Shown: positions 50,960-64,000 of the stretch, in pieces | How positions within the stretch are numbered: position 1 is the first letter of the stretch | Layout of the letters: each line of letters opens with the position of its first letter | Origin: Streptomyces sp. NBC_00440 | GTDB lineage: Bacteria > Actinomycetota > Actinomycetes > Streptomycetales > Streptomycetaceae | DNA: 64,000 nucleotides | Reading direction: 5' to 3' | Assembly: GCF_036014215.1 (NCBI RefSeq) | Contig: NZ_CP107921.1 | Span: forward strand, 7,685,501-7,749,500 | Position numbers and translations under genes: made by a program | The notes under the pieces: generated by a model | What the model saw: only the letters and a program-made list of their open reading frames with translations | Database searches by the model: none | What the model was told of the DNA's origin: nothing

Positions 50960-51346
50960 CTACGTCGGCCGCGGCGTGAGCGGCTCGATGATCGGCGCAC
51001 CGTCCTTGTCGGTCATGAAGTCGCGGTGGACCGGCTTCTTGTCCGTCGGCTCGGGCAGGTTCGGGCACGCGATGCCGTCGCCGTCCCGGTCGAGCGCGTT
51101 CGGGTCGAGTGCGTCCGCTCGCAACACCGCTTGCGCGTCGGCCTGGGTCTTGAACGCGTCGCAGTCGACCACGTGCCCCTTGTGCACATACGGAGCGACG
51201 TCGAACGCATGCTTCGGGGGTCCGTTGTCACCGCACGCGGTCAGCGTGATCGCCGCGATCACGCTGACCGCCACGATGGAGGTACGACGCCCCGGTCGTA
51301 GCCGGCGGTCCGGGCCCTGGTGGATGGTGCGTGGCTGGTCTGCCAT
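50960..51346 (-). CDS. Excalibur-domain lipoprotein
   Basis: This is a 128-residue protein. VIAAITLTAC at about residues 30-39 is a lipoprotein signal with lipobox LTAC. After it, DCDAFKTQADAQAVL followed by DPNALDRDGDGIACPNLP is a complete Excalibur domain; the DRDGDG loop resembles an EF-hand and likely binds Ca2+. It would be anchored at the outer face of the membrane. The ATG lies four bases after the stop of the pilin/beta-propeller gene, so it is the last gene of that operon. A role in assembling or stabilising the surface structure is inference. Confidence 0.8.
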   Translation of the reverse strand: MADQPRTIHQGPDRRLRPGRRTSIVAVSVIAAITLTACGDNGPPKHAFDVAPYVHKGHVVDCDAFKTQADAQAVLRADALDPNALDRDGDGIACPNLPEPTDKKPVHRDFMTDKDGAPIIEPLTPRPT

Positions 51347-51350
51347 GGTT

Positions 51351-52922
51351 CTAGGCCGATCCTGTCCGAAACACCGCGACTGTTCCGTTCGCCGGATCGA
51401 CCGCATACACCTTCCCCGTGGTGTTGTTCGTGGCCAACGCCCCGAAGTTCCTGCCCTTGCCGAGCGGAGCCTGACCCAGCAGCGTGCCGCCGTCGGCCAC
51501 CCCGAGGCCGCCCGGCGCTGTACTGTTTTGCTGTGCGACGAAGATCCTGTTGAAGTCTCTCAGCACGGTGAGCTTGTGTCCTTGGTTCCCGAAGGCACCT
51601 GACACTCCGCAGACTGGTGCCTGCCCCGTGACCTTCGTCCCGACGATTCGGTCGATGCGGCCCCCAAGTCCGCCGCAGTTCGTGCCACCGCTCAAGTAGA
51701 CGTAAGCCGACCCTGCCGCGGGGTTGTACACCACGGATTGGGGAGTGTAGGGCGTCCCCACCGGGTCGTCGATCGCTGTTGAACTGCCGTCGCTGGGGTT
51801 GATGGCGATCGTTGTCGCGACGATACTCAACCCGCCCGAGGGACTCGGAACGCATCTCCTGGCAAGGAGGTAGACCCGGTTGCGGCCGGGATCGACAGCG
51901 GTCATGCCACGAACGGAGTTTGTAACAAGGACGTTCCCGGCGTTGGTGCCGCAGAATTGCGTCGTCGTCTCGAACTGCGCTGCCATCCTGGCATCGTGGG
52001 TCTGCGACGAGATGGCGAAGAGGCCGATGCTGCCAGCGAGGCTCGTGCCGCTGCCGACAGCCGCCTTTGCGAGATACACCGCGTGGCGCTCGGAGTCAAA
52101 GGAAAAGTCCATGCTGCTGTTTGCGCCCACGACTCCCGCAGCGGGCAGTGGGATCCCCGTCGCCGACGAGCTGCCGGACGCGATGTAGGCGACCGCCGAG
52201 GTGCTTGCGGCACCGCCGCCGACATAGACATCGCCGTTCTCGGGCGAGACGGCCAGGCCAATGACGGTCGTCGTATAGCCGTTGACGTGGGTCACTTGAT
52301 TGGCGTTCTTCGTGTCGATGATCGCGACGCCGCCCGTACCCCCGACGTAGACCCGGCCCGTGCCGGAGTCGACCGCGATGCGGGTTGGGCTCGAAACAGC
52401 CTTGGAAACATCAATCGGTTCACCGATCGCGGCGTCGGTCTTGCCGTCGATCACGGTCACGTCGTTGCTGCCTTGAGCCACGACGTACACGCGATTGGCC
52501 TTCTCGTCGACGGTGAGGTCGGTCGGATTCGTGCCCGCCTTGATGGCGTCCGCCCCGCCCTCCGTCGGTGCGGAGACATCATTCAGCGCGAACGACGATT
52601 TTTCGCCTCGACCGCACTTGTTCTCCTCACCGACCACCACCATGTTGTAGCCGGGAACACCGGAGAGCAGCCCGTCATCTTTCAGATCATCGGCTGTCCC
52701 GTAGTGTCCGTACTTCGCGCAGTAGGACTCTTCCGCTGTGCGCAGCGTGGTCGCCTCCGCGGAGACCGCGCTCTTGTGGCCCTTGTCGCCGATGCCCCTG
52801 ACGGAGAACACCACGATGGCGGCGAGAACGCCGAGGATCACGATGACCACGAGCAACTCGATGAGTGTGAAGCCGTCCTGGCTTCTGGCGCGCAATGAGA
52901 ACCGGCGATGGTCCGATGTCAT
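51351..52922 (-). CDS. Pilin N-terminus fused to a beta-propeller domain
   Basis: This is a 523-residue protein. Residues 1-105 are a type IV prepilin: 17-residue leader ending in G17, then FTLIELLVVIVILGVLAAIVV (Glu at mature position 5), and a short pilin domain. From about residue 130 to the end are seven or eight repeated blades with motifs such as NPTDLTVDEKANRVYVVAQG and SPTRIAVDSGTGRVYVGG, i.e. a YncE/NHL-like beta-propeller. The pilin part closely matches the major pilin at 57222. It would be processed by PilD and inserted in a pilus, perhaps as a tip or display subunit. Second gene of the operon; ATG at 52922 follows GAAGGAAG. I know of no standard pilin with this layout. Confidence 0.85.
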   Translation of the reverse strand: MTSDHRRFSLRARSQDGFTLIELLVVIVILGVLAAIVVFSVRGIGDKGHKSAVSAEATTLRTAEESYCAKYGHYGTADDLKDDGLLSGVPGYNMVVVGEENKCGRGEKSSFALNDVSAPTEGGADAIKAGTNPTDLTVDEKANRVYVVAQGSNDVTVIDGKTDAAIGEPIDVSKAVSSPTRIAVDSGTGRVYVGGTGGVAIIDTKNANQVTHVNGYTTTVIGLAVSPENGDVYVGGGAASTSAVAYIASGSSSATGIPLPAAGVVGANSSMDFSFDSERHAVYLAKAAVGSGTSLAGSIGLFAISSQTHDARMAAQFETTTQFCGTNAGNVLVTNSVRGMTAVDPGRNRVYLLARRCVPSPSGGLSIVATTIAINPSDGSSTAIDDPVGTPYTPQSVVYNPAAGSAYVYLSGGTNCGGLGGRIDRIVGTKVTGQAPVCGVSGAFGNQGHKLTVLRDFNRIFVAQQNSTAPGGLGVADGGTLLGQAPLGKGRNFGALATNNTTGKVYAVDPANGTVAVFRTGSA

Positions 52923-52990: not shown

Positions 52991-53635
52991 TCACGGTGTT
53001 CCCCGTCGCACGGGCTTGACGTCCTTGGGTCCCGGCAGGTCCCGGCAGGCGATGCCCTTGCCGTCGCCGTCAAGGTGATTCGGGTCGGCCGGTGCGAAAC
53101 GCAGGACGGCCTGCGCGTCCGCTTGGCTGGCGAAGTCCGAGCAGTCGTAGGCGTCATCGCCGTAGCGCAGGAAGTAGCGGGCGTCGAAGGGCCGCTTCCG
53201 CTGCGGGCAGAGCGCGCTGCGAGTGTCGCCAGGACGGCACGCGAAGTGCTGTGCGATGCGAGGAACCGGTTTGGTGTCGCGCGGTTCGGGCAGTCCACGG
53301 CACGCGACGCCGCCTCCGTCATCGAGGTGATTCGGATCGCTCGGGTTGGCCCGCAGCACCGCCTGGGCATCCGCCTGACTGGCGAAACTGATGCACGCGA
53401 AGGCGTTGCCGTGGATGGCGTATTCCTTGGGGGCGAACACCTTGCTGTGCGGGCAGAGCGCGCTGCGCTGGGTGCCCGGCGTGCACCACTCGGGGTCGGG
53501 TTTCTGGGCTGAGGCGGTCCCGTCCGACCCACCGCGCACAAACGCCACAACGACGAGCGCTACCGCAACCACCGCGAGACCCAGCCCGCCCCACCTGATC
53601 GTGCGCGAGCGCGAAAGTCTGCTCAACAGTGCCAT
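52991..53635 (-). CDS. Membrane-anchored double Excalibur protein
   Basis: This is a 214-residue protein. A basic N-terminus and one transmembrane segment (IRWGGLGLAVVAVALVVVAFV, written here as visible hydrophobic run) anchor it with the rest outside. Two repeats of about 75 residues follow, each with SALCP, then FASQADAQAVLR and an Excalibur end. The second has HLDGDGKGIACRDLP; the first has HLDDGGGVACRGLP, with Asp ligands reduced. Conserved Cys in each repeat suggest disulfides. ATG at 53635 after AGAGG. It is the first gene of the pilin/beta-propeller operon and stands under a strong promoter. Confidence 0.8.
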   Translation of the reverse strand: MALLSRLSRSRTIRWGGLGLAVVAVALVVVAFVRGGSDGTASAQKPDPEWCTPGTQRSALCPHSKVFAPKEYAIHGNAFACISFASQADAQAVLRANPSDPNHLDDGGGVACRGLPEPRDTKPVPRIAQHFACRPGDTRSALCPQRKRPFDARYFLRYGDDAYDCSDFASQADAQAVLRFAPADPNHLDGDGKGIACRDLPGPKDVKPVRRGTP

Positions 53636-53732: not shown

Positions 53733-53761
53733 ATTACATACACAGCGGACCTGGTTGTCAA
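53733..53761 (-). promoter_or_regulatory. Near-consensus sigma-70-type promoter for the Excalibur/pilin operon
   Basis: On the minus strand, TTGACA (53761-53756) is followed after exactly 17 bases by TGTAAT (53738-53733). This is a near-perfect housekeeping promoter about 98 bases before the first start of the operon, which is rare in streptomycete DNA. Confidence 0.7.
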
Positions 53762-53924
53762 TCATTGACTACTGGGTCGTCAGGTGAGCACCATCTAGGC
53801 GTGTGAGGCACCGTCATGTCGGGGAACCACGCAGATGCCCAGGAGTTCTCGGACATCTGCCCACTCCTGCCAGGAGGGTGCCCGTGCGGCAGTCGCCGCC
53901 AACCGGATCAACGAGGAGTAGCAG

Positions 53925-55154
53925 ATGCAACTAAGACCCAGACACACTCGGAGTGGCCCGAACTCCGGCTTCACCGCGATGCGGCGGGTACGGAACGCTT
54001 TCGCTGTGGGTGCCCTCGCGACAGCCCTCATCGGCGCCACGGCACCAACCGTGTTCGCCTCGACGGATTCGCAAGTCGGTATCGCGAACAACATGTACCC
54101 CGCAGTGACGGACATGAAGAGTGCGATCGAGTCGGGTGGGTCGTTCACGGCGTTCACGGCGAATGGTGCATCGCAGGTCGGCGGGTTCTGGAACAAGCCG
54201 ACGATCGATACGTCGACGATGCGGGGGATCACGTCGGGCAGCCTGCGTCAGCAGCTGAAGAGCGCCGGCCCCTACACCACGTGCGATCCGTCGTCGTCGA
54301 ACAACTGCGTCAATGGGCCTTTGCACATTGACGCGTTCCTGTCGGCGGACGAAACCAACGCGGACGCGGTGATCCCGACCGCGGATGGTGGGACGTGCAC
54401 GGCGAGCGGGAGCGTCGAGTGCAACGGCACGATCTCAAGCAAGCATGCTGTGGCCATCGGGCACCTGGCGATCTACAGCTGCAGCGGCAGCTGGGCGGGC
54501 TCGACTCACGGTGATGACCCGTCCAACGCCGGGACTCCGCCGCTGGCGTCCGGCGCGGACGCCAATGGCAGCGGTAACGGCAAGGCCCAGTCGCCCCGGT
54601 GTGACGCATCGCCGGTCTCCGGCGGCGCGCCCACGACGATACCGGGGGTGGTGAGCTGGCTCGCGACGAGTGGGCACCGGATCGCGGTCGCCGACCCGGC
54701 TTCCGCGCCGTTCGGTGCGGCGTCCAAGCAGGCGTTGATCCAGAACGGGTTCTCGTGGGTCACCAGCGGGGCGGGTCAGAACGTGTTCACCGGAAGCGCG
54801 TGCGACAGCGCGGGTACGGCGTGCAAGGTGCGTCTGGAATCAGGGATCAGCCAGGTACGTGGCGCGGTGACGGCCAACGCCGGGGGAAACACCCAGCTGG
54901 GTCTTGTCGCGAAGTCGAACGTCATGCACGTGAGCTGGACGTCGAGTTCGCTGAACGGCACCACGGGTAATGACCCCAACACGTGGACCGATGTCGATCC
55001 GAGCGCGTACTCCGTCTACGGAAACATCGAGCAGTACGGCGTCGCCCTGAACGGCGGCAACGCGGGCGCAGCGGCCGCTTGGGACAACCTGTTCAACGCC
55101 ACGTGGGACAGCAACACCGACATCCAGACGACCCTCGCCGCCTACGGCTACTAG
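53925..55154 (+). CDS. Secreted ModA-like substrate-binding protein
   Basis: This is a 409-residue protein. A signal peptide starts near residue 19 (MRRVRNAFAVGALATALIGA) with cleavage after VFA; there is no lipobox. The mature part follows the ModA (molybdate-binding) fold: IDAFLSADET, AIGHLAIYS, RIAVADPASAPFGAASKQAL, NTQLGLVAKSNV and a C-terminal YGNIEQYGVAL...AAYGY. Compared with ModA it has Ser/Thr/Gly-rich insertions and eight or more Cys. No ModB/ModC transporter genes are near. GAGGAG precedes the ATG at 53925. It is divergent from the pilin/beta-propeller operon. It may bind an oxyanion or be a reused fold for surface binding. Confidence 0.7.
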   Translation: MQLRPRHTRSGPNSGFTAMRRVRNAFAVGALATALIGATAPTVFASTDSQVGIANNMYPAVTDMKSAIESGGSFTAFTANGASQVGGFWNKPTIDTSTMRGITSGSLRQQLKSAGPYTTCDPSSSNNCVNGPLHIDAFLSADETNADAVIPTADGGTCTASGSVECNGTISSKHAVAIGHLAIYSCSGSWAGSTHGDDPSNAGTPPLASGADANGSGNGKAQSPRCDASPVSGGAPTTIPGVVSWLATSGHRIAVADPASAPFGAASKQALIQNGFSWVTSGAGQNVFTGSACDSAGTACKVRLESGISQVRGAVTANAGGNTQLGLVAKSNVMHVSWTSSSLNGTTGNDPNTWTDVDPSAYSVYGNIEQYGVALNGGNAGAAAAWDNLFNATWDSNTDIQTTLAAYGY

Positions 55155-55451: not shown

Positions 55452-56000
55452 TCAGCCGGTCTTGACCGTCGGCTGCGCCGAGTCGACGTCGACGGCGTCG
55501 AGGAACCGGCGCGCGGCGCGGACGTGTTCCAGCCGCCAGGCATAGATCGCACGGACGAGGTAGTCGCCGGCGTGCTCCTTGGCGCGCAGCGACTCCTCGA
55601 TCTCGTCGATGACGTCCCGTTGGCGCTCGACCAGGCGAGCCGGGCTGCTGGCGCGACGCTGGAGCAGCAGAAGCTTGCTCGTGAGCTCGGCGCGGATGTC
55701 GAACAGTTTGACCACGGGTTCGCTGAGCCACCGGCTGACCGCCATCTTCGCCGAGCGGGTGGTGGCGTAGATCATGCGCTGCGGTCCGCGATCGCTTTCC
55801 TCGGTGCCGACCGGCGTGATCAGTCCGCGCTCGACCAGTCGCGTGATCGACCGGTAGACCATGGGTCTTGAGATGTACCAGAACTCACCGATTTCCGCGC
55901 CCTCCGCGGTGAGGGCTGCGATGGCGAAGCCGTGGCTGGGCCGTTCAGCCATGAGTGCGAGCACGATCCACTCGGCGAGTGGCAGATCAGGTTGTCCCAT
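55452..56000 (-). CDS. PadR-family regulator
   Basis: This is a 182-residue protein. The winged helix is LAEWIVLALMAERPSHGFAIAALTAEG....FWYISRPMVYRSITRLVERGLITPV, followed by a long C-terminal helix for dimer formation (LVERQRDVIDEIEESL). The ATG at 56000 is used; 56006 is an in-frame alternative. It follows the prepilin peptidase gene on the same strand after 144 bases and is the only regulator in the pilus locus, so it may bind the paired palindromes at 57643 and 57756. Confidence 0.85.
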   Translation of the reverse strand: MGQPDLPLAEWIVLALMAERPSHGFAIAALTAEGAEIGEFWYISRPMVYRSITRLVERGLITPVGTEESDRGPQRMIYATTRSAKMAVSRWLSEPVVKLFDIRAELTSKLLLLQRRASSPARLVERQRDVIDEIEESLRAKEHAGDYLVRAIYAWRLEHVRAARRFLDAVDVDSAQPTVKTG

Positions 56001-56143
56001 GGGCACCAGGGTATGCGGTCGCCGACGGTGTTCGCTGCGGTACCCAGGCAGCTCGGGGCGCTGTAGTCACCCTAAGCGGCGTGCGGGTCCGCCGGTAGCG
56101 GCAACCGGCAAACCGGCCCGCGGCTGACGTCCGGCCCGGGTGG

Positions 56144-56968
56144 TTATGGCCGGTGGCGGACCGTGGGGTGCGGCGCACCCATCGCGTACAGGTCGCTCAC
56201 CCTCTCGTACCAGTGGACGACAGGGGCGCCGACGAGAATCGCGGCGATGGCGCCGGCGGTGAGGAACACACCGAAGGGGAGGCGGGTATGGCGGGTCGCT
56301 CGGCCCGCCGCCATGAGCGCGATACCCACCAGCAACCCGACGACGCTGCCGGCCAGCAGCGCGAAGACGAGATACCACGGACCGAGCCAGCCGAGCCCGG
56401 TGCCGAGCAAGCCGGCCAGCCGCACGTCACCGAACCCGAGCCAGGCCGGCCGCACCCAGTGCAGGGCGAAGAAGACAGCGAATGCGCCCACTCCGCATGC
56501 CGCGGTCACGCCGAGCCGATGCCACTGGCCGGTGACCGCCGCTGCCGCGAGCAGGCAGGCGGCGGTGAGCCCGAGAGTCGGGTATATCAGCCGCCGAGGG
56601 AGCAGGAACTGTTCGGCGTCACAGGCGGCCAGGGCCAACAGCCCTGCGGTGAAGACCAGTTGGGCCGGTAGGACTTCCGACCGGCCGAAGCGCAGCGCCT
56701 CGGCGATGAACAGGATCGCGGTAAGCGCTTCGATGAGCGGATAGCGCGCGGGGATCGGAACCCGGCAGGCGCGGCAGCGCCGGCCCAGCAGGAGCCAGGA
56801 GAGGACGGGGATGTTGTCCCGGGCCGCGATCGGCGTGGCGCATCGCGGACAGGCGGAGCGGGGCCGCACGACCGAGCGGCCGGCCGGCACCCGGGAGACG
56901 GCGACGTTGAGGAACGACCCCACCGCGAGCCCCAGCAGGCCAATAATCATGACAAATGTGTATGGCAT
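56144..56968 (-). CDS. pilD: Prepilin peptidase (PilD/GspO type)
   Basis: This is a 274-residue polytopic membrane aspartic protease that cleaves the Gly-Phe bond of prepilins and usually N-methylates the new end. The N-terminal GLLGLAVGSFLNVAVSRVP is typical, followed by the zinc-binding tetracysteine C40, C43, C65, C68. The catalytic Asp residues are D117 (ACDAEQFLLP) and D181 (GFGDVRLAGLLG, the GxGD motif). Seven to eight transmembrane segments are visible. Presence of the tetracysteine and N-terminal domain indicates a bifunctional type IV enzyme rather than a Tad-type short one. Confidence 0.92.
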   Translation of the reverse strand: MPYTFVMIIGLLGLAVGSFLNVAVSRVPAGRSVVRPRSACPRCATPIAARDNIPVLSWLLLGRRCRACRVPIPARYPLIEALTAILFIAEALRFGRSEVLPAQLVFTAGLLALAACDAEQFLLPRRLIYPTLGLTAACLLAAAAVTGQWHRLGVTAACGVGAFAVFFALHWVRPAWLGFGDVRLAGLLGTGLGWLGPWYLVFALLAGSVVGLLVGIALMAAGRATRHTRLPFGVFLTAGAIAAILVGAPVVHWYERVSDLYAMGAPHPTVRHRP

Positions 56969-57221
56969 GGGCGCAATGGTGCCGTACCGTGCGTGCTGGT
57001 CGCTACCGGCACCCAGCGGGTGGTCCGGACCGGGATTCCAGGCCTCTGCGACCCGCCCCGCGACCGACCCCTGCATCCGCAAGGTGGTTCAGGCATAGGG
57101 CAGTTCCGGCGAAGCCGCCGGCCACCGGCCGCGGTTCACCAAGTGGCGCTTGCGCTGCCACCCGGCGAAGCACGGCCGGCTGAGGACCTCCGGTCGGCGG
57201 CGTCGGCGAGGACTCCCCTGA

Positions 57222-57590
57222 TCAGGAGGCGCAGGGCTTGCCGGGTATCGCCGTGACGGCAAGGTCGGTTTCATTGTTTTTCAGCGTGACTTCGTACCAC
57301 TGGGAAGCCGTGGACAGGAACCCACCGCTCACCAGAGCGTCCATGCTGCCGTACTTACTGTTGTTGGCGAAGTACGCCTCTTCAGCAGTCTGGACCGTGG
57401 ACTGGTCGGTCTTGCACGCCGCGCCCTGGCCCTTGTCGTTGATGCCACGGACGGAGAAGACGACGACGGCGGCCAGGATGCCGAGGATCACGATGACCAC
57501 GAGAAGCTCGATCAGCGTGAAGCCGGCTTCCGCGGTCTCGTTCAGTGCACGCATTCGCTGGCGCAACCTGCCTTGCAGGTATGTGTACAT
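57222..57590 (-). CDS. Major type IV pilin-like protein
   Basis: This is a 122-residue prepilin. The leader ends at G23 and the mature chain starts FTLIELLVVIVILGILAAVVV with Glu at position 5. Then VFSVRGINDKGQGAACKTDQSTVQTAEEAYFANNSKYG and a short C-terminal domain with two Cys (after GQGAA and in PGKPCAS) that could form the D-region disulfide. AGGGAG precedes the ATG at 57590. It is divergent from pilB and about 250 bases upstream of pilD on the same strand. Size and simple fold suggest the main fibre subunit. Confidence 0.88.
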   Translation of the reverse strand: MYTYLQGRLRQRMRALNETAEAGFTLIELLVVIVILGILAAVVVFSVRGINDKGQGAACKTDQSTVQTAEEAYFANNSKYGSMDALVSGGFLSTASQWYEVTLKNNETDLAVTAIPGKPCAS

Positions 57591-57775: not shown

Positions 57776-57843
57776 AGTACTGCGGGGCGCACTCGCGGCG
57801 CATGCTCGGCCGTTGTTCCGGATGCACGAAAGGGGTGGGTGCC

Positions 57844-59685
57844 TTGGCGAATCGTCGGCTTCTCCGGCGCCGCGCGGAGACGACAAGCCCTGCGGGCGAG
57901 GACGGCACCCTGCCCGATGGGGCGCGCGGCTCGGCGCCGTCTCCGGTCCCGGCGGGCGAACCGGTCGAGGACGCGGCGTCCGGCACGGCTCAGTCGTCGC
58001 CCGCAGGGCAGCAGCGGCCCCGCATTGGGGAACTGCTGGTGCAGCGCGGGCTGCTCACCCCGGCGCAGGTGGACGAGGCGCTCCTGCAGCAGTCGACGTC
58101 GGGCAAGCGGCTCGGCACGTTGCTGGTCGAACTCGGCATGGTCGACGAGCGGTCATTGATCGAGGCGCTGTCGGTTCAACTCGACGTACCCGTAGCCGAC
58201 TTGCATCAGAGCGAACCTGATCCCGAGGCGGCCGCCCGGGTGCCGGAGGCGCTGGCACGCTCGTTGGGCGTCGTCGCGGTGCGGCGGGCCGATGGCACGC
58301 TGCTGATCGCGGCGGGCGACCCGGGTGACCCGCGCGTGCTCGACGAGGTCAGCCGGGCCGTCGCGCCGGATCGGGTGCAGTTGGCGATCGCGGCTCCCTC
58401 GGACATCCGGCGCTCGATCGACAGCACCTACCGGGCGCTGACCGGTGTCAGCAGCCTGGTCGAGGCCTTCGAGGCGACCGAGACCGGCCGCAACGCCAAC
58501 TCCGGGGCCAGGGTGGTGAGCGAGGACGCGCCGGTCGTGCACCTGGTCAACCTCATGCTGACCCAGGGCCTGCGCGACCGGGCCTCGGACATCCACGTCG
58601 AACCGCACGCAGACCGGGTCCGGGTCCGGTACCGCATCGACGGCGCGCTGCATGACGTGCTGAGCCTGCCGGAGAACATGGGCCCGTCCCTGGTCAGCCG
58701 GATCAAGATCATGGCCAACATGAACATCGTCGACCGGCGGCGCCCGCAGGACGGGCAGATCGCCACCGAGATCGACGGCAGGTCGGTCGACATCCGGGTC
58801 GCGACCACCCCCACCATCTGGGGCGAGAAGGCGGTACTGCGACTGCTCGACAGCAACCGCACACTGCTGCGGCTGGCCGAGCTCGGGATGCCCGCCGCGA
58901 CCTACGAACGGTTCTCGTCCCTGCTGCGCTCCCCCTACGGCATGGTCGCCTGCGGCGGACCGACCGGCAGCGGCAAGACGACCACCCTGTACGCCACGCT
59001 CGGTGAGCTGAACCAGAGCGAGCGCAACATCACCACCATCGAAGACCCGGTGGAGTACGTGGTCCCGTCGGTCAACCAGATCCAGATCAACGACCAGGCG
59101 GGTGTCTCGTTCGCGACCGGGCTGCGCTCGATCCTCCGTCAGGACCCCGACGTGATCCTGGTCGGCGAGATCCGGGACGCCGAGACGGCGCGGATCGCGG
59201 TCGAGTCCGCTCTCACCGGTCACTTCGTCCTGTCGTCCATCCACGCCGCCGACGCCTGCTCCGCGCTGCACCGGTTCGCCGACATGGGTATCGAACCGTT
59301 CCTGATCACCTCCACGGTGGCCGGCGTGGTCAGCCAGCGACTGGTGCGGCGGATCTGCGATCAGTGCCGCGAGCCCTACCAGCCGGGCGTGGACGAACTG
59401 GCCTTCTTCGCAAAGGCCGGCGGGTCGACCGACGCCGGGTTCTGGCAGGGCCGGGGCTGCAACTTCTGCTCCCGGACCGGCTACCAGGAGCGGATCGGCG
59501 TCTTCGAACTGCTCGTGATGAGCGACGCGGTCAAGCGGCTGCTCGTCGAGCAAGCGCCGGTCGACAGCTTGCGCAGGGCCGCCCGCGAGCAGCACATGGA
59601 CAGTCTCCTGGACGGAGGCGTCCGTCTGGTGGAGGAGGGGACCACGACCATCGCCGAGATCATGTCCAGCGTGTACGTGGTCTAG
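57844..59685 (+). CDS. pilB: Type IV pilus assembly ATPase PilB/GspE
   Basis: This is a 613-residue hexameric secretion ATPase. After a 65-residue Ala/Pro-rich linker comes the GspE N-domain (RIGELLVQRGLLTPAQVDEALL). The motor domain has Walker A GPTGSGKTTTLY, the Asp box TIEDPVEY, Walker B VILVGEIRDAETA and a His box. A zinc tetracysteine (CDQC and CNFC about 45 residues apart) marks PilB rather than PilT. It powers pilin insertion at the inner membrane. TTG at 57844 is chosen because GAAAGGGG lies eight bases upstream. It is divergent from the pilin gene and starts the assembly operon. Confidence 0.93.
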   Translation: MANRRLLRRRAETTSPAGEDGTLPDGARGSAPSPVPAGEPVEDAASGTAQSSPAGQQRPRIGELLVQRGLLTPAQVDEALLQQSTSGKRLGTLLVELGMVDERSLIEALSVQLDVPVADLHQSEPDPEAAARVPEALARSLGVVAVRRADGTLLIAAGDPGDPRVLDEVSRAVAPDRVQLAIAAPSDIRRSIDSTYRALTGVSSLVEAFEATETGRNANSGARVVSEDAPVVHLVNLMLTQGLRDRASDIHVEPHADRVRVRYRIDGALHDVLSLPENMGPSLVSRIKIMANMNIVDRRRPQDGQIATEIDGRSVDIRVATTPTIWGEKAVLRLLDSNRTLLRLAELGMPAATYERFSSLLRSPYGMVACGGPTGSGKTTTLYATLGELNQSERNITTIEDPVEYVVPSVNQIQINDQAGVSFATGLRSILRQDPDVILVGEIRDAETARIAVESALTGHFVLSSIHAADACSALHRFADMGIEPFLITSTVAGVVSQRLVRRICDQCREPYQPGVDELAFFAKAGGSTDAGFWQGRGCNFCSRTGYQERIGVFELLVMSDAVKRLLVEQAPVDSLRRAAREQHMDSLLDGGVRLVEEGTTTIAEIMSSVYVV

Positions 59686-59764: not shown

Positions 59765-60976
59765 ATGGCCACCTTCAAGTACGTCGCGGTCGGCCCGGAC
59801 GGGAAGCGGGCCACCGGCGTGCTCACGGGCTCCAGCGTCGACGGCGTGACCGACAGCCTGACCCGGCAGGGCTACGACGTGCAGTCGGTCACCGCCGCGA
59901 GCCGTAACCTGCTACGGCTCGAACTCACCGCGGCGAAGATCAACCTGGTCGAGCTGAGCAACTTCTCCCGCCAGATGGGCGCCTTCATCAAGGCCGGAGT
60001 GCCCATCCTGGACGCCCTGGAGATCATCCGCGCCGAGACCAAGGACAAGAAGCTGGGCAAGGTGCTCATCGATGTCATGGACTCGCTGCGATTCGGCGAA
60101 AGCTTCGCCGCCGCGATGGCCGCCCACACCGCGGCGCTCCCCCCGTTCTACATCTCCGTCCTCCGCTCGGCAGAGGCGACCGGTGAACTCGACGTGGTGA
60201 TGGCCCAGTTGGCCCGCTACATCGAGCGCGACGTCGAGGGCCGGCGCAGTATCCGCTCCGCCCTGACCTATCCGATCCTGGTCATGGGTCTGGCCGTCGT
60301 GGTCGTCCTCATCCTCGTCATCTTCGTCCTGCCCCGCTTCAAGGTGTTCTTCGCGTCCTTCCACGCGGAACTGCCGCTGCCGACGCGGATCCTGCTGGGC
60401 TTCACCGACTTCGTCACGGCCTGGTATCCGGTCATCATCGGCGTGCTCGTCGCTCTCGTCGCGGCAGTGCTCGCCGGTCTGCGGACCGAGCGGGGGCGCG
60501 TACTGCGTGACCGTTTCCTGCTGGCGACGCCGGTGGTCGGCGACGTGGTCCGCTTCATGGTCATCGAACGGTTCTGCCGCATCCTGACCTCGATGATCAA
60601 GGCGGGCGTGCCCATCACGGAGGCGCTCAGCCTGGCCGGCTCGGGCGCCAACAACCGGGTGTACGAACGGTCCATCGGGACGGCCCAGGTGGAGATGCTC
60701 GAAGGCGGCGGCATCTCCCGGCCGATCGCCCGCACCAAGCTGTTCCCCGGGGCGGTCACCCAGATGATGCGCGTGGGGGAAGAGACCGGGACCCTCGACG
60801 ACCAGCTTGAGAACGTGTCGGAATTCTACGAGAAGGAACTCCAGCACAAACTCAAGCGGCTGACCAGCCTGTTCGAACCGACCGTCGTGATCATGATCGG
60901 GGTCGTCGTGGGGTTCGTGGCCGTCGCCCTCATCTCGGCGATCTACGGCGTCTACAACCAGGTCAACGTCCAGTGA
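59765..60976 (+). CDS. pilC: Inner-membrane platform protein PilC/GspF
   Basis: This is a 403-residue membrane protein with two GspF repeats (about residues 65-190 and 270-395), for example FSRQMGAFIKAGVPILDALEII and FCRILTSMIKAGVPITEALSLA. Three transmembrane segments follow the usual order. The N-terminal MATFKYVAVGPDGKRATGVL is typical. It is the platform that couples PilB to pilins. CAGGAGG precedes the ATG at 59765, 79 bases after pilB; its stop overlaps the next start. Confidence 0.93.
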   Translation: MATFKYVAVGPDGKRATGVLTGSSVDGVTDSLTRQGYDVQSVTAASRNLLRLELTAAKINLVELSNFSRQMGAFIKAGVPILDALEIIRAETKDKKLGKVLIDVMDSLRFGESFAAAMAAHTAALPPFYISVLRSAEATGELDVVMAQLARYIERDVEGRRSIRSALTYPILVMGLAVVVVLILVIFVLPRFKVFFASFHAELPLPTRILLGFTDFVTAWYPVIIGVLVALVAAVLAGLRTERGRVLRDRFLLATPVVGDVVRFMVIERFCRILTSMIKAGVPITEALSLAGSGANNRVYERSIGTAQVEMLEGGGISRPIARTKLFPGAVTQMMRVGEETGTLDDQLENVSEFYEKELQHKLKRLTSLFEPTVVIMIGVVVGFVAVALISAIYGVYNQVNVQ

Positions 60977-61422
60977 CCGGCCTGGCACGCCGCCCACGCC
61001 GCCCACACCACTCACGCCGCCGCGGCGAAGAGGGCGAGACTCTGGTCGAGGTTCTCGTCGCCGTGGTGCTAATGGGTGTTGCCTTCGTGGCGATCCTCGG
61101 GGGCATGGGCACCGCGATCATCAGCTCGGTGACGCAGCACAAGGTGACCAGTGCCGATTCCGTCATCCGCAGCGCCGCAGAGAAGGTCGTCAGCGACCCG
61201 TACATGTCCTGCGCCCGTAGTTACGAGACTCCGGCGCCGCCGTCCGGGTACACCGTGACCGTCACGATCGAGTACTGGGACGGGGTGGGTTCGTTCGGCC
61301 GGCCCTGCCCGACGGCCGATACCGGAGTGCAGAAGGTATCGCTCACCGTGCACTCGACCGGCCCGCACCCCGTCCGGGACGCGACGCTCGAAGTGGTCAA
61401 GCGGGAGTCGATGCTGTCATGA
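60973..61422 (+). CDS. Pseudopilin (PilV/GspI-like)
   Basis: This is a 149-residue minor pilin. The leader is long and very basic (about 21 residues, many Arg and His) and ends in EEG; the mature part starts ETLVEVLVAVVLMGVAFVAIL with Glu at position 5. Two Cys in the C-terminal domain may form a disulfide. GTG at 60973 overlaps the pilC stop by four bases and its own stop overlaps the next start. Minor pilins of this type prime or cap the fibre. Confidence 0.85.
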   Translation: MTGLARRPRRPHHSRRRGEEGETLVEVLVAVVLMGVAFVAILGGMGTAIISSVTQHKVTSADSVIRSAAEKVVSDPYMSCARSYETPAPPSGYTVTVTIEYWDGVGSFGRPCPTADTGVQKVSLTVHSTGPHPVRDATLEVVKRESMLS

Positions 61423-61943
61423 CGACACAACAGCCGACTGTGCGCTCGGAGTCGGGGTTCACCCTGACCGAATTGCTGGTCACGATCGTCATCCTGGGCA
61501 TCATCGGGACACTGCTGCCCAAGGCGATCATCCTCGGACTGCGGTTCACCGCGGGCACCGAGAAGCGGGTGGCAGCCACCAGCGCGCTGGGCACCCTCAA
61601 CCGCTACTTCTACGGCGACGTGCAGAGCGCGGACACCGTCACGACCGACCCGGCGTGCGGCGTCACCGACGTGATCGTGCACCTGAGCCGGCCCGGCACC
61701 GACGTCGTCTACACCTACGGCCGGCCGACCGGCGCCCTCGACCGGGTGAAGTGCACCGACGGAGGTGTCGTCACCACGTTGCTGGGCCGGATCGACAACC
61801 CCGCATCGACCCATCCGGTGGTTCTGAGCTGCGGTGCCGAGACCTCGTGCACCCCGCCCATGGAGGTAACGCTGACCGTGCAGAGCGACCCCGCCGCGCC
61901 CGCGACGGCCCTCACCGCCGTCCGACGAGCGAGCTCGTCATGA
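61419..61943 (+). CDS. Pseudopilin (PilW/GspJ-like)
   Basis: This is a 174-residue minor pilin. The short leader MTTQQPTVRSESG is followed by FTLTELLVTIVILGIIGTLLP (Glu at position 5). The C-terminal domain is beta-rich with several Cys (DPACGV, VKCTD, SCGAETSC). ATG at 61419 overlaps the previous stop, and the stop overlaps the start of the large repeat protein, so minor pilins are made together. The GspJ/PilW label rests on size and gene order. Confidence 0.83.
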   Translation: MTTQQPTVRSESGFTLTELLVTIVILGIIGTLLPKAIILGLRFTAGTEKRVAATSALGTLNRYFYGDVQSADTVTTDPACGVTDVIVHLSRPGTDVVYTYGRPTGALDRVKCTDGGVVTTLLGRIDNPASTHPVVLSCGAETSCTPPMEVTLTVQSDPAAPATALTAVRRASSS

Positions 61944-64000
61944 CCGGCCGCCTGAATCCGCGCCGCCCGCGCGACGACGAACAGGGCGCGACACTGATCC
62001 TCGCGCTGGCCTTCGTCGTCGTCTTCAGCCTGGTCACCGTGTCGGTCCTGTCCTTCGCCGGCACGGGACTGAAAGCCGCGAGCGTGTACGTCGACCAGGG
62101 CAAGCGGAGCTACAGCGCGGACGGTGCCACGCAGCTCGCGATCAAGAACTTCTCGCAGGGCAACCCGTGCGCCGACTACACCGGCCCGCCGATCAACGGC
62201 CGGCAGATGATCGTCCACTGCGACCCCCTCAACGCGTCTCCCGCAACCGCGCGCGCGACCCAACCGCAGGACGCGCTGCGCAGCATGGGCCGGACGGCGA
62301 AGGACGGCATCAACGTGACCACGCACGGTCTGCGCGTGCAGGGCAGCGTGTTCTCCCACTCGGACATCACCACCGGCGCCGGCGCCTCGATGAAGGTGTC
62401 CGGCGACGTGTCCGCCGTCGGCGACTGCTCCAGTGCCGTGTCACAGACCCAGTTGCCCCCGGCCCAGGCGCCGTACGTGCACGACTGCGCCAACGACACC
62501 CCATCGGCTCCCGCCGACGAGGCCGTGGGCGCCGACCCGGACTACACCCCGCCGGCCACGGCCGTCCCGGTCCGGCAGACGGTGCCCGCGTGCCCCGACG
62601 CCGGTTCCTGGCTGGTGCGGTTGCGGCCCGGCTACTACGACGACGCCCGCGCTCTCACCCGCCTCACCGGTGGCGATTGCCACAACGTCGTCGTGTGGCT
62701 GCAACCGGGCATCTACTACTTCGACTTCACCTTCACCGGCGGCACCGCGGTCTGGACGGTCGACGACCCCACGGTCAGCGTGGTCGGCGGCACGCAGGCA
62801 GGCTGGGATCCCGGGGCCCCCGCCCGCCCGGCCATCCCCGACCCGGGCGGTTGCGACAGAACGCGGCCCGAAGGCGTCGAGGTCATGATGGGCGGCGGCA
62901 GCCGATTCCAGGTCGACCGTGGACACGCCGAACTGTGCGCCCCGGTGACGCCGGACGCGCAGCAGGTGGCGGTGTACGGGGTCCAGCCGCCGAAGCCGTC
63001 ACACACGCTGAAGCCGACAGCGGTGGTCACGAACATCGGTTTCGCCAACCCGGGCCACGCTCTGACCAGTGGCGAACAGCCGACCCTGCCCGGGTGTTCG
63101 CAGCCAACGGGCACCGCGGGCTGCACGGCCGACGCTGTCCTCGACCCGGCGAAACGTCAGTCGGCCTCGATGCAGCTCGCCGGCTTCACCCCGCAGGTGC
63201 CGCCCGGCTCGGTCATCACCAGCGCGAAGCTGCGTGTCAGGCACGAGGACGACGGTGACCTGACCGCCCCCGGCGCGGTGAAGGTCACCACCGCCGTCGG
63301 CGGAGACATCTGCCGCACCGACAACCTGCCCCGGCACACGGCGCTCGCCACGGATCCTCCGATCGACCTGCTGGGTGCGTGCGGGCTCGCCGACCCGACT
63401 CGGCTCACCGACCTGGCAGTGACCTACGCCGCCACCCTGGACACCGACGGCACCTCCGCCAAGGAACGCCTGGACGGCATCTGGCTGGAGGTCGCCTACC
63501 GCACACCGACCACGTTCAAGCCGACCGCCGTGACCGCATCGACCGGGTTCACCGCTACCGGCACCCATCCCAACGACGCCCTGGAGATCGGCGAGCAGCC
63601 GGCACCGTCGGTGGCCGGCGCCGATCTGACCACGGCGGCCCCGTCCGCCTCGATCACCCTGGCCGGGTTCGGCCGGCCGCCCCTGCCGCCGGGGTCGACG
63701 ATCGACTCCGCCGTGCTACGGGTGGCCCATCGGGAGACCGGAGGCGCAGCGGCGCCCAGAATCACCGTCACCCCCGGGGACGGCGGTGGCGGTTGCACCA
63801 ACCTGCCGCTCACCGCGCGGGCCGGCCTGGGCGACGACCGTGTCGACCTGAAGACATGCGGTATCACCGACCCCGCACAGCTGACCGGCCTGACCGCGAC
63901 CTACGCCGCCGGACTGAAGGCGGGCGGCGCAGCGGGCGCCGATTCCCTGGACGGCATATGGCTCGAAGTCGTCTACGACCCGCCGCCGCCCCGGCCGGCG
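61940..64000 (+). CDS. Large membrane-anchored pilus protein with tandem repeats (PilX-like), 3' end outside window
   Basis: The frame is open from ATG 61940 (ATGA overlap) to the last base, 687 codons without a stop. Residues 14-45 (DEQGATLILALAFVVVFSLV...) are a PilX/GspK-like hydrophobic N-terminus after a Gly, with no Glu at position 5. The outside part first has a Cys-containing domain of about 310 residues, then at least two repeats of about 160-170 residues, each starting [LF]KPTAV..[ST].GF and ending LDGIWLEV.Y (residues about 357-517 and 526-676). Third-repeat residues may follow. Likely a minor pilin or tip adhesin carried on the fibre. Function is inference. Confidence 0.8.
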   Translation, partial: MTGRLNPRRPRDDEQGATLILALAFVVVFSLVTVSVLSFAGTGLKAASVYVDQGKRSYSADGATQLAIKNFSQGNPCADYTGPPINGRQMIVHCDPLNASPATARATQPQDALRSMGRTAKDGINVTTHGLRVQGSVFSHSDITTGAGASMKVSGDVSAVGDCSSAVSQTQLPPAQAPYVHDCANDTPSAPADEAVGADPDYTPPATAVPVRQTVPACPDAGSWLVRLRPGYYDDARALTRLTGGDCHNVVVWLQPGIYYFDFTFTGGTAVWTVDDPTVSVVGGTQAGWDPGAPARPAIPDPGGCDRTRPEGVEVMMGGGSRFQVDRGHAELCAPVTPDAQQVAVYGVQPPKPSHTLKPTAVVTNIGFANPGHALTSGEQPTLPGCSQPTGTAGCTADAVLDPAKRQSASMQLAGFTPQVPPGSVITSAKLRVRHEDDGDLTAPGAVKVTTAVGGDICRTDNLPRHTALATDPPIDLLGACGLADPTRLTDLAVTYAATLDTDGTSAKERLDGIWLEVAYRTPTTFKPTAVTASTGFTATGTHPNDALEIGEQPAPSVAGADLTTAAPSASITLAGFGRPPLPPGSTIDSAVLRVAHRETGGAAAPRITVTPGDGGGGCTNLPLTARAGLGDDRVDLKTCGITDPAQLTGLTATYAAGLKAGGAAGADSLDGIWLEVVYDPPPPRPA

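Follow-up and report, generated by a model that had tools for sequence, protein, structure and literature searches.

A prepilin joined to a predicted eight-bladed beta-propeller beside a type IV pilus gene cluster in Streptomyces

We analysed a stretch of 64,000 nucleotides (hereafter, the window) from Streptomyces sp. NBC_00440 (NZ_CP107921.1, positions 7,685,501 to 7,749,500), in which a single open reading frame joins a prepilin to a beta-propeller next to type IV pilus genes. This propeller pilin probably (we estimate about 0.77) serves a complete actinobacterial type IV pilus as a modular minor pilin, displaying the propeller as its binding module. In this reading, it adds a new example to a known design, in which a working module, here a propeller, is grafted onto a pilus subunit.

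Domain organization of the propeller pilin

The propeller pilin gene, the central ORF of this study, lies at 51351..52922 on the minus strand and encodes 523 residues. Its leader (residues 1-17; 52872..52922, minus strand) ends in Gly and is matched by the Pfam family N_methyl (E 5.6e-9); with the threshold set at E 0.1, the Pfam scan returned N_methyl and Lactonase and nothing else. Like the class III signals of modular pilins, the sequence has Gly-1 and Glu5 ahead of a hydrophobic stretch, and both residues (G17 and E22) are unchanged in 87/87 sequences; cleavage by the prepilin peptidase is expected at G17|F18 on the basis of this signal. The pilin module that follows (residues 18-115; 52578..52871, minus strand) was delimited by the AF2 model, by its identity to PilA and by the lengths of the two proteins. 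In the model, it comprises a helix at 20-71, a short helix, and strands 93-98 and 110-115, which is the extended N-terminal helix with a small beta part that characterizes modular pilins. A linker of about 4 residues leads to the C-terminal propeller of about 400 residues (120-523; 51354..52565, minus strand; limits from the model and its strand list), which, as in other modular pilins, is a module of a general fold that matches unrelated propeller proteins. The N_methyl match, the invariant Gly-1 and Glu5 and the modelled helix thus bear out the preliminary description, which had reported a complete class III prepilin signal and N-terminal helix in a 523-residue frame continuous with a propeller.

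The AlphaFold model (mean pLDDT 88.7, pTM 0.84) combines a confident pilin helix with a closed propeller, the outcome on which the idea of a display pilin had been made to depend, rather than a C-terminal part that lacks a propeller. According to our own assignment from the strand list, the ring is closed by strand 120-122, which completes the last blade. Strand order and structural neighbours predict eight blades. Eight blades are stated in the titles of the Tako8 structural neighbours only; we take Rsa4, ODA16, Sqt1 and BamB to be eight-bladed and WDR5 to be seven-bladed. A seven-bladed ring, prompted by the names YncE and Lactonase, was abandoned because of the strand count and of how the neighbours ranked by Z, so that the earlier estimate of seven or eight blades narrows to eight.

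YncE/YVTN propellers and the archaeal S-layer YVTN protein 1l0q share the propeller fold and partial sequence similarity with the propeller pilin, and 1l0q is matched by the family profile with an E of 1.8e-26. Nevertheless, the propeller pilin has eight-bladed proteins as its best neighbours, bears a pilin, and reaches 29.4 bits against the YncE equivalog NF052280, far under the curated cut-off of 400; the likeness to YncE is one of fold only.

Conservation is highest in the pilin helix (variability of 0.36 bits, compared with 1.24 bits in the propeller). Among the propeller loops, the bc and da loops (1.98 and 1.63 bits) are more variable than the ab and cd loops (0.92 and 1.05 bits), as calculated within the propeller-pilin family. 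In propellers, the bc and da loops lie on one face and the ab and cd loops on the other; our assignment of loops to faces follows this standard topology and not the model coordinates. The loop variability could instead result from relaxed constraint.

The type IV pilus cluster and the kinship with PilA

The window contains, beyond the propeller-pilin operon, the genes of PilD (56144..57082, minus strand; A24_N_bact 2e-31, Peptidase_A24 3.4e-9), PilA, the presumed major pilin of 122 aa (57222..57590, minus strand; N_methyl 1e-7), the extension ATPase PilB with its MshEN domain (57802..59685, plus strand; T2SSE 1.5e-126, MshEN 1e-17) and the platform protein PilC (59765..60976, plus strand; T2SSF 8.4e-54). 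These are followed on the plus strand by two minor pilins with N_methyl matches at 60973..61422 and 61419..61943, which we presume from position and sequence to be of I type and J type, respectively, and by a K-type minor pilin of 1275 aa without Glu5, which begins at 61940 and continues past the window edge at 64000. PilT is encoded 3' of K, beyond the window (L004:5265-6377). With PilD, PilA, PilB, PilC, minor pilins and PilT in one cluster, the locus has what defines a type IV pilus system, and the statement that full pilus machinery adjoins the propeller pilin holds.

Glu5 is missing from K in 6/6 full-length loci, both in a plain tblastn alignment and with a pattern that requires a hydrophobic residue at position 5. 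K has no Pfam match. It appears by eye, and from additional self-like tblastn matches, to contain several similar modules, which makes it an unusually large tip candidate. PilM_2 had no match in genomes G000, G426 and G577 despite the presence of PilB and PilC, and in G719 a PilM match is located on a different contig.

The pilin module of the propeller pilin and the PilA of the cluster are 55% identical over 83 residues. Since the module has about 98 residues and mature PilA has 99, the propeller starts about where PilA stops. Over the 32-residue helix, the propeller pilin and the PilA of the same genome are identical at 26-30 positions in each of six genomes. The identities of the own pairs sum to 166, compared with a mean of 157.5 on re-pairing among genomes; 11 of the 720 re-pairings are as good, one of them being better, and in G000 and G577 the PilA of another genome fits the propeller-pilin helix better than their own. 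This within-genome match weakly supports the co-assembly of the propeller pilin with PilA.

Operon structure and a conserved palindrome

The propeller pilin is encoded between two Excalibur proteins on the same strand. The upstream protein (52991..53635, minus strand) has a hydrophobic segment and two Excalibur-like repeats, the second recognized from cross-hits; ATG 53635 is its likely start because the alternative ORF start, 53761, falls on the promoter. The downstream Excalibur protein (50960..51346, minus strand) is a probable lipoprotein, with the motif LTAC assigned by eye, and its ATG at 51346 lies 4 bases past the propeller-pilin stop. The promoter-like sequence TTGACA-N17-TGTAAT of this operon (53733..53761, minus strand) is conserved in 5/5 Streptomycetaceae loci, in agreement with the earlier view of a separate operon with two Excalibur proteins and its own promoter. 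The downstream lipoprotein was recognized clearly in G000, G224 and G426 and weakly in G577 (32% identity, E 1.5e-4); it was not found in the G483 locus, nor at that place in G719.

The same five loci share, together with the promoter, the sequence GTAGTCAATGATTGACAAC, inside which GTCAATGATTGAC forms a perfect palindrome over the -35 element (53757..53769, without strand), a candidate operator. Its 16-base form, GTAGTCAATNATTGAC, has one mismatch-free site in the genome, at this operon, the second listed hit being the same site on the opposite strand; the backwards control likewise gave one hit. With up to two mismatches, the palindrome is expected 0.41 times per window. Given this expectation and the control hit, the weight of the palindrome lies in its exact match and its conservation. 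The PadR-family protein encoded at 55452..56006 on the minus strand (Pfam PadR 31.8 bits, cut-off 27) is the natural candidate for a regulator acting on it. In G224, a second copy of the palindrome, GTCAATNATTGAC, is present at L091:12286-12298, past the end of the ModA-fold gene.

Conservation of the locus and remnants

Six full-length loci were compared, five from Streptomycetaceae (G000, G224, G577, G483 and G426) and one, G719, from another class. PilD, PilA, PilB, PilC, I-, J- and K-type subunits, an Excalibur protein and a secreted ModA-fold protein are present in 6/6. The five Streptomycetaceae loci have the common order propeller pilin, double-Excalibur protein, ModA-fold protein, PadR, PilD, PilA, PilB, PilC, I, J and K. 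A PilT gene comes after K in G000, G483 and G719; the stretch fetched for G426 shows the first 26 residues of PilT, and those for G224 and G577 stop within K, before the position of PilT. In G719, PilD, PilA, PilB, PilC, the minor pilins and PilT precede the ModA-fold protein, the Excalibur protein and the propeller pilin, which is 31% identical to that of the window over the whole length. In these six loci, full-length homologues are thus found beside pilB and pilC, as had been anticipated. In G224 (L091), the PilB and PilD genes each span two reading frames, from sequencing error or decay, so the machinery of this one locus may be incomplete.

Two further proteins were seen at the G719 locus. 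Immediately 3' of its propeller pilin, L116:18421-19194 encodes a ModA-like SBP_bac_11 protein (135.7 bits) with a lipobox by eye, and L116:12842-14452, within the pilus locus, encodes a 536-aa protein with FG-GAP and RTX calcium-binding repeats.

Three genomes, G023, G446 and G278 (L092, L103 and L093, respectively), retain only a C-terminal part of the propeller pilin together with the Excalibur lipoprotein, in open frames of 267, 417 and 180 aa. The PilD to PilC genes were not found within the 20 kb fetched around these three loci. PilT sequence is present near the remnant in G023 and G446, not in G278. The G023 remnant directly adjoins the end of K, the arrangement expected if the intervening block had been deleted. 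We read the three remnants, despite their open frames, as probable deletion scars. Homologues lying away from any prepilin peptidase had been named as evidence against a pilin role; the copies of this kind among the loci examined are these three C-terminal remnants, G446 being judged on the 20 kb fetched.

Relatives and distribution

A search with the whole protein returned 111 proteins, of which P0001 (that of the window) to P0087 align over at least 97% of the query, and the other 24 over 13-27%, mostly within the pilin part. Both prepilin and propeller are carried by 86 homologues, and the named hosts among P0001-P0084 belong to Streptomyces and Kitasatospora only. With the propeller alone (residues 116-523), 110 proteins were found: P0001-P0086, all with a prepilin domain, a fragment annotated as a partial prepilin protein, and 23 remote proteins with no prepilin domain listed. 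Every close relative of the propeller found therefore resides on a pilin. P0087, remote in the whole-protein search, is absent from the propeller-only list. A whole-alignment scan of contigs, which kept 80 loci from 152 relatives, was left unused, since its patterns came from the pilin helix and these loci mostly correspond to the pilin part.

The system is uncommon in the genome samples. Matches occurred in 4 of 295 genomes of the genus sample (full length in G000 and G224) and in 6 of 394 genomes of the family sample (full length in G000, G577, G483 and G426), G000 and the partial G023 being members of both; these genome protein searches scored a few first-look candidates per genome, and distant copies may be missed. 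A24_N was detected in three of the 295 genus genomes, namely G000, G224 and G158, the last with a short match (25.6 bits) and no propeller pilin. Accordingly, both full-length carriers in the genus sample have PilD, and both partial carriers (G023 and G278) are without A24_N genome-wide. When the propeller pilin of G719 was used to search genomes of its class, one of 219 matched, G719 itself, so the system looks rare there as well. A tblastn search against plasmids gave no propeller-pilin match, and one homologue from the protein search, P0061, is named as plasmid-borne.

The ModA-fold protein and solute-binding fusions

Divergently from the operon, the window encodes a secreted protein with the ModA fold (type 2 periplasmic-binding; 53925..55154, plus strand). 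Using its AF2 model (pLDDT 83.8), Foldseek retrieved ModA molybdate-binding proteins with the best E of 4.1e-11, and AcfC (5.4e-3) and PEB3 (1.1e-2) lower down; Pfam SBP_bac_11 stays under its cut-off. In the six loci, the N-terminus is a plain Sec signal with no lipobox by eye, and no transporter genes adjoining the gene were seen by eye in the ORF list of the window. With identical longest-contig size taken as a proxy for a common contig, 33 of 73 listed homologues share the exact size with a propeller-pilin entry and 40 do not; a control with shifted sizes gave 0.03 expected, the largest value being 2. The ModA-fold protein is therefore likely a partner of the propeller pilin, and, by analogy with its fold, small anions, glycans or peptides are possible ligands.

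Prepilins fused directly to solute-binding domains were also found. P0090 is a prepilin fused to SBP_bac_11, to the domain of which the ModA-fold family aligns with 97.5% probability, and the ModA-fold homologue P0200 is on a contig of the same size as that of P0090 (34,200 bases). P0088 is fused to SBP_bac_5 and P0093 to SBP_bac_1. Together with P0094, P0102 and others, these prepilins constitute a group of possible display pilins; five entries, all SBP_bac_5 by their listed domains, have a named host, Acidimicrobiales bacterium. P0095 and P0109 have other large C-terminal parts and are perhaps independent prepilin-propeller fusions, P0109 having a weak delta-60 (propeller-repeat) hit.

Proposed function and alternative explanations

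In the proposed mechanism, PilD would cleave the propeller pilin after Gly17, and Glu5 with the PilA-like helix would permit polymerization with PilA near an I-J-K tip complex, a position expected because the module is bulky, as argued for modular pilins in PMC8179133. The pilin would join the bottom face of the propeller, leaving the variable top face outward to bind a ligand or a surface. K would cap the fibre, which PilB would extend and PilT retract, reaching out and pulling in bound material. The ModA-fold protein would be the likeliest secreted partner, either held by the pilus or handing a ligand to it. A display pilin, as first proposed, fits the pilin helix and closed propeller of the model and the machinery beside 6/6 full-length loci. 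An extension of this mechanism, which we put forward tentatively and consider unlikely, is a ligand-capturing pilus, in which the propeller pilin and the free ModA-fold protein would form a two-part receptor outside the wall and PilT retraction would deliver the ligand; the SBP_bac_1/5/11-type domains fused elsewhere onto a closely related small pilin would then be a shortcut to the same end.

The preliminary description had left open whether the propeller sticks out of the fibre or caps it. Display fits; a cap fits less well, because Glu5 is present in the propeller pilin and a distinct subunit, K, lacks it. That the propeller pilin is itself the tip cap or adhesin, filling the role that the non-pilin PilY1 has in diderm pili, would agree with a bulky module being expected at the tip (PMC8179133), with the propeller that PilY1 likewise has, and with no PilY1-type domain being reported among the scanned cluster proteins. 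However, Glu5 is invariant in the 87 sequences compared, so a further pilin can sit above, K is the classical cap, and the assembly helix is PilA-like; we regard this as a minority possibility. The prepilin part might also serve only to anchor or export a propeller that acts in the wall, for instance with the Excalibur lipoprotein, in a pseudopilin at the cell surface with no long fibre. A short pseudopilus would be enough for this, the separate operon includes two Excalibur proteins, one of them a probable lipoprotein, and the GspG profile matches the helix, though with 39.4 bits against a cut-off of 88.85. We nevertheless find it quite improbable, as the helix matches PilA and the PilT-type ATPase after K, including the start seen in G426, suggests a retractable pilus.

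YVTN propellers are common secreted proteins, and the ORF could in principle be an ordinary YncE-type one with a chance N-terminal fusion or an annotation error. This has next to no probability and is refuted by the conservation of the fusion, which is full length in 86 listed homologues, recurs at 31% identity in another class, and has the pilin helix as its most conserved part. The preferred reading remains a modular minor pilin displaying the propeller.

Streptomyces are non-swimming and filamentous, and a conserved, retractable-looking pilus with a conserved promoter offers a handle on the role of pili in soil bacteria that grow as mycelia. The locus is compact, and its propeller can be separated for use in binding screens. 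The repeated pairing with solute-binding folds, adjacent here and fused elsewhere, would widen the role of pili from adhesion to the capture of ligands, and the propeller pilin with its ModA-fold partner, present in two classes, is the part most worth laboratory effort.

Comparison with known systems

Modular pilins were defined in 2021 by Raynaud et al., with more than 1,200 proteins in 264 architectures (PMC8179133), and ligand-binding modular pilins are experimentally known (PMC8179133, PMC9934059). In section 9 of PMC8179133, none of the extra domains of the 15 commonest architectures is described as a propeller. Among the papers listed, our literature search, which covered titles and abstract beginnings, showed neither a protein joining prepilin and propeller nor a Pil-type pilus in Streptomyces; the prepilin-propeller architecture may be among the 264. 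The claim that this layout is undescribed thus holds for the prepilin-propeller combination within the titles and abstract beginnings searched, but not for the general design of a module grafted on a pilin, which was published in 2021. For the one Streptomyces genome that it tabulates, a 2011 survey of Gram-positive pili gives 0 Pil-type and 3 tad operons (PMC3244431).

The modular pilins PilB (vWA) and PilC (lectin) of Streptococcus sanguinis share with the propeller pilin a prepilin signal, a pilin unit, a C-terminal module of a general fold, a monoderm pilus and a likely position near the tip. They differ in that the module here is an eight-bladed propeller on a pilin unit closely resembling the local PilA, and S. 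sanguinis has PilABC in place of HIJK, whereas the propeller-pilin cluster additionally has I-, J- and K-type subunits. The diderm tip adhesin PilC/PilY1 likewise provides a type IV pilus with a beta-propeller; however, PilY1 is a non-pilin, whereas the propeller studied here is continuous with its pilin and gave no PilY1-type Pfam match in the scan at E 0.1. A further parallel is CofB-CofJ of ETEC, in which, according to PMC8179133, a large minor pilin is thought to hold a secreted protein, and a comparable secreted candidate adjoins the propeller pilin. The extra domains of CofB are a beta-repeat and a beta-sandwich, whereas here the pilin bears a propeller and the secreted candidate, a predicted partner, has the ModA fold.
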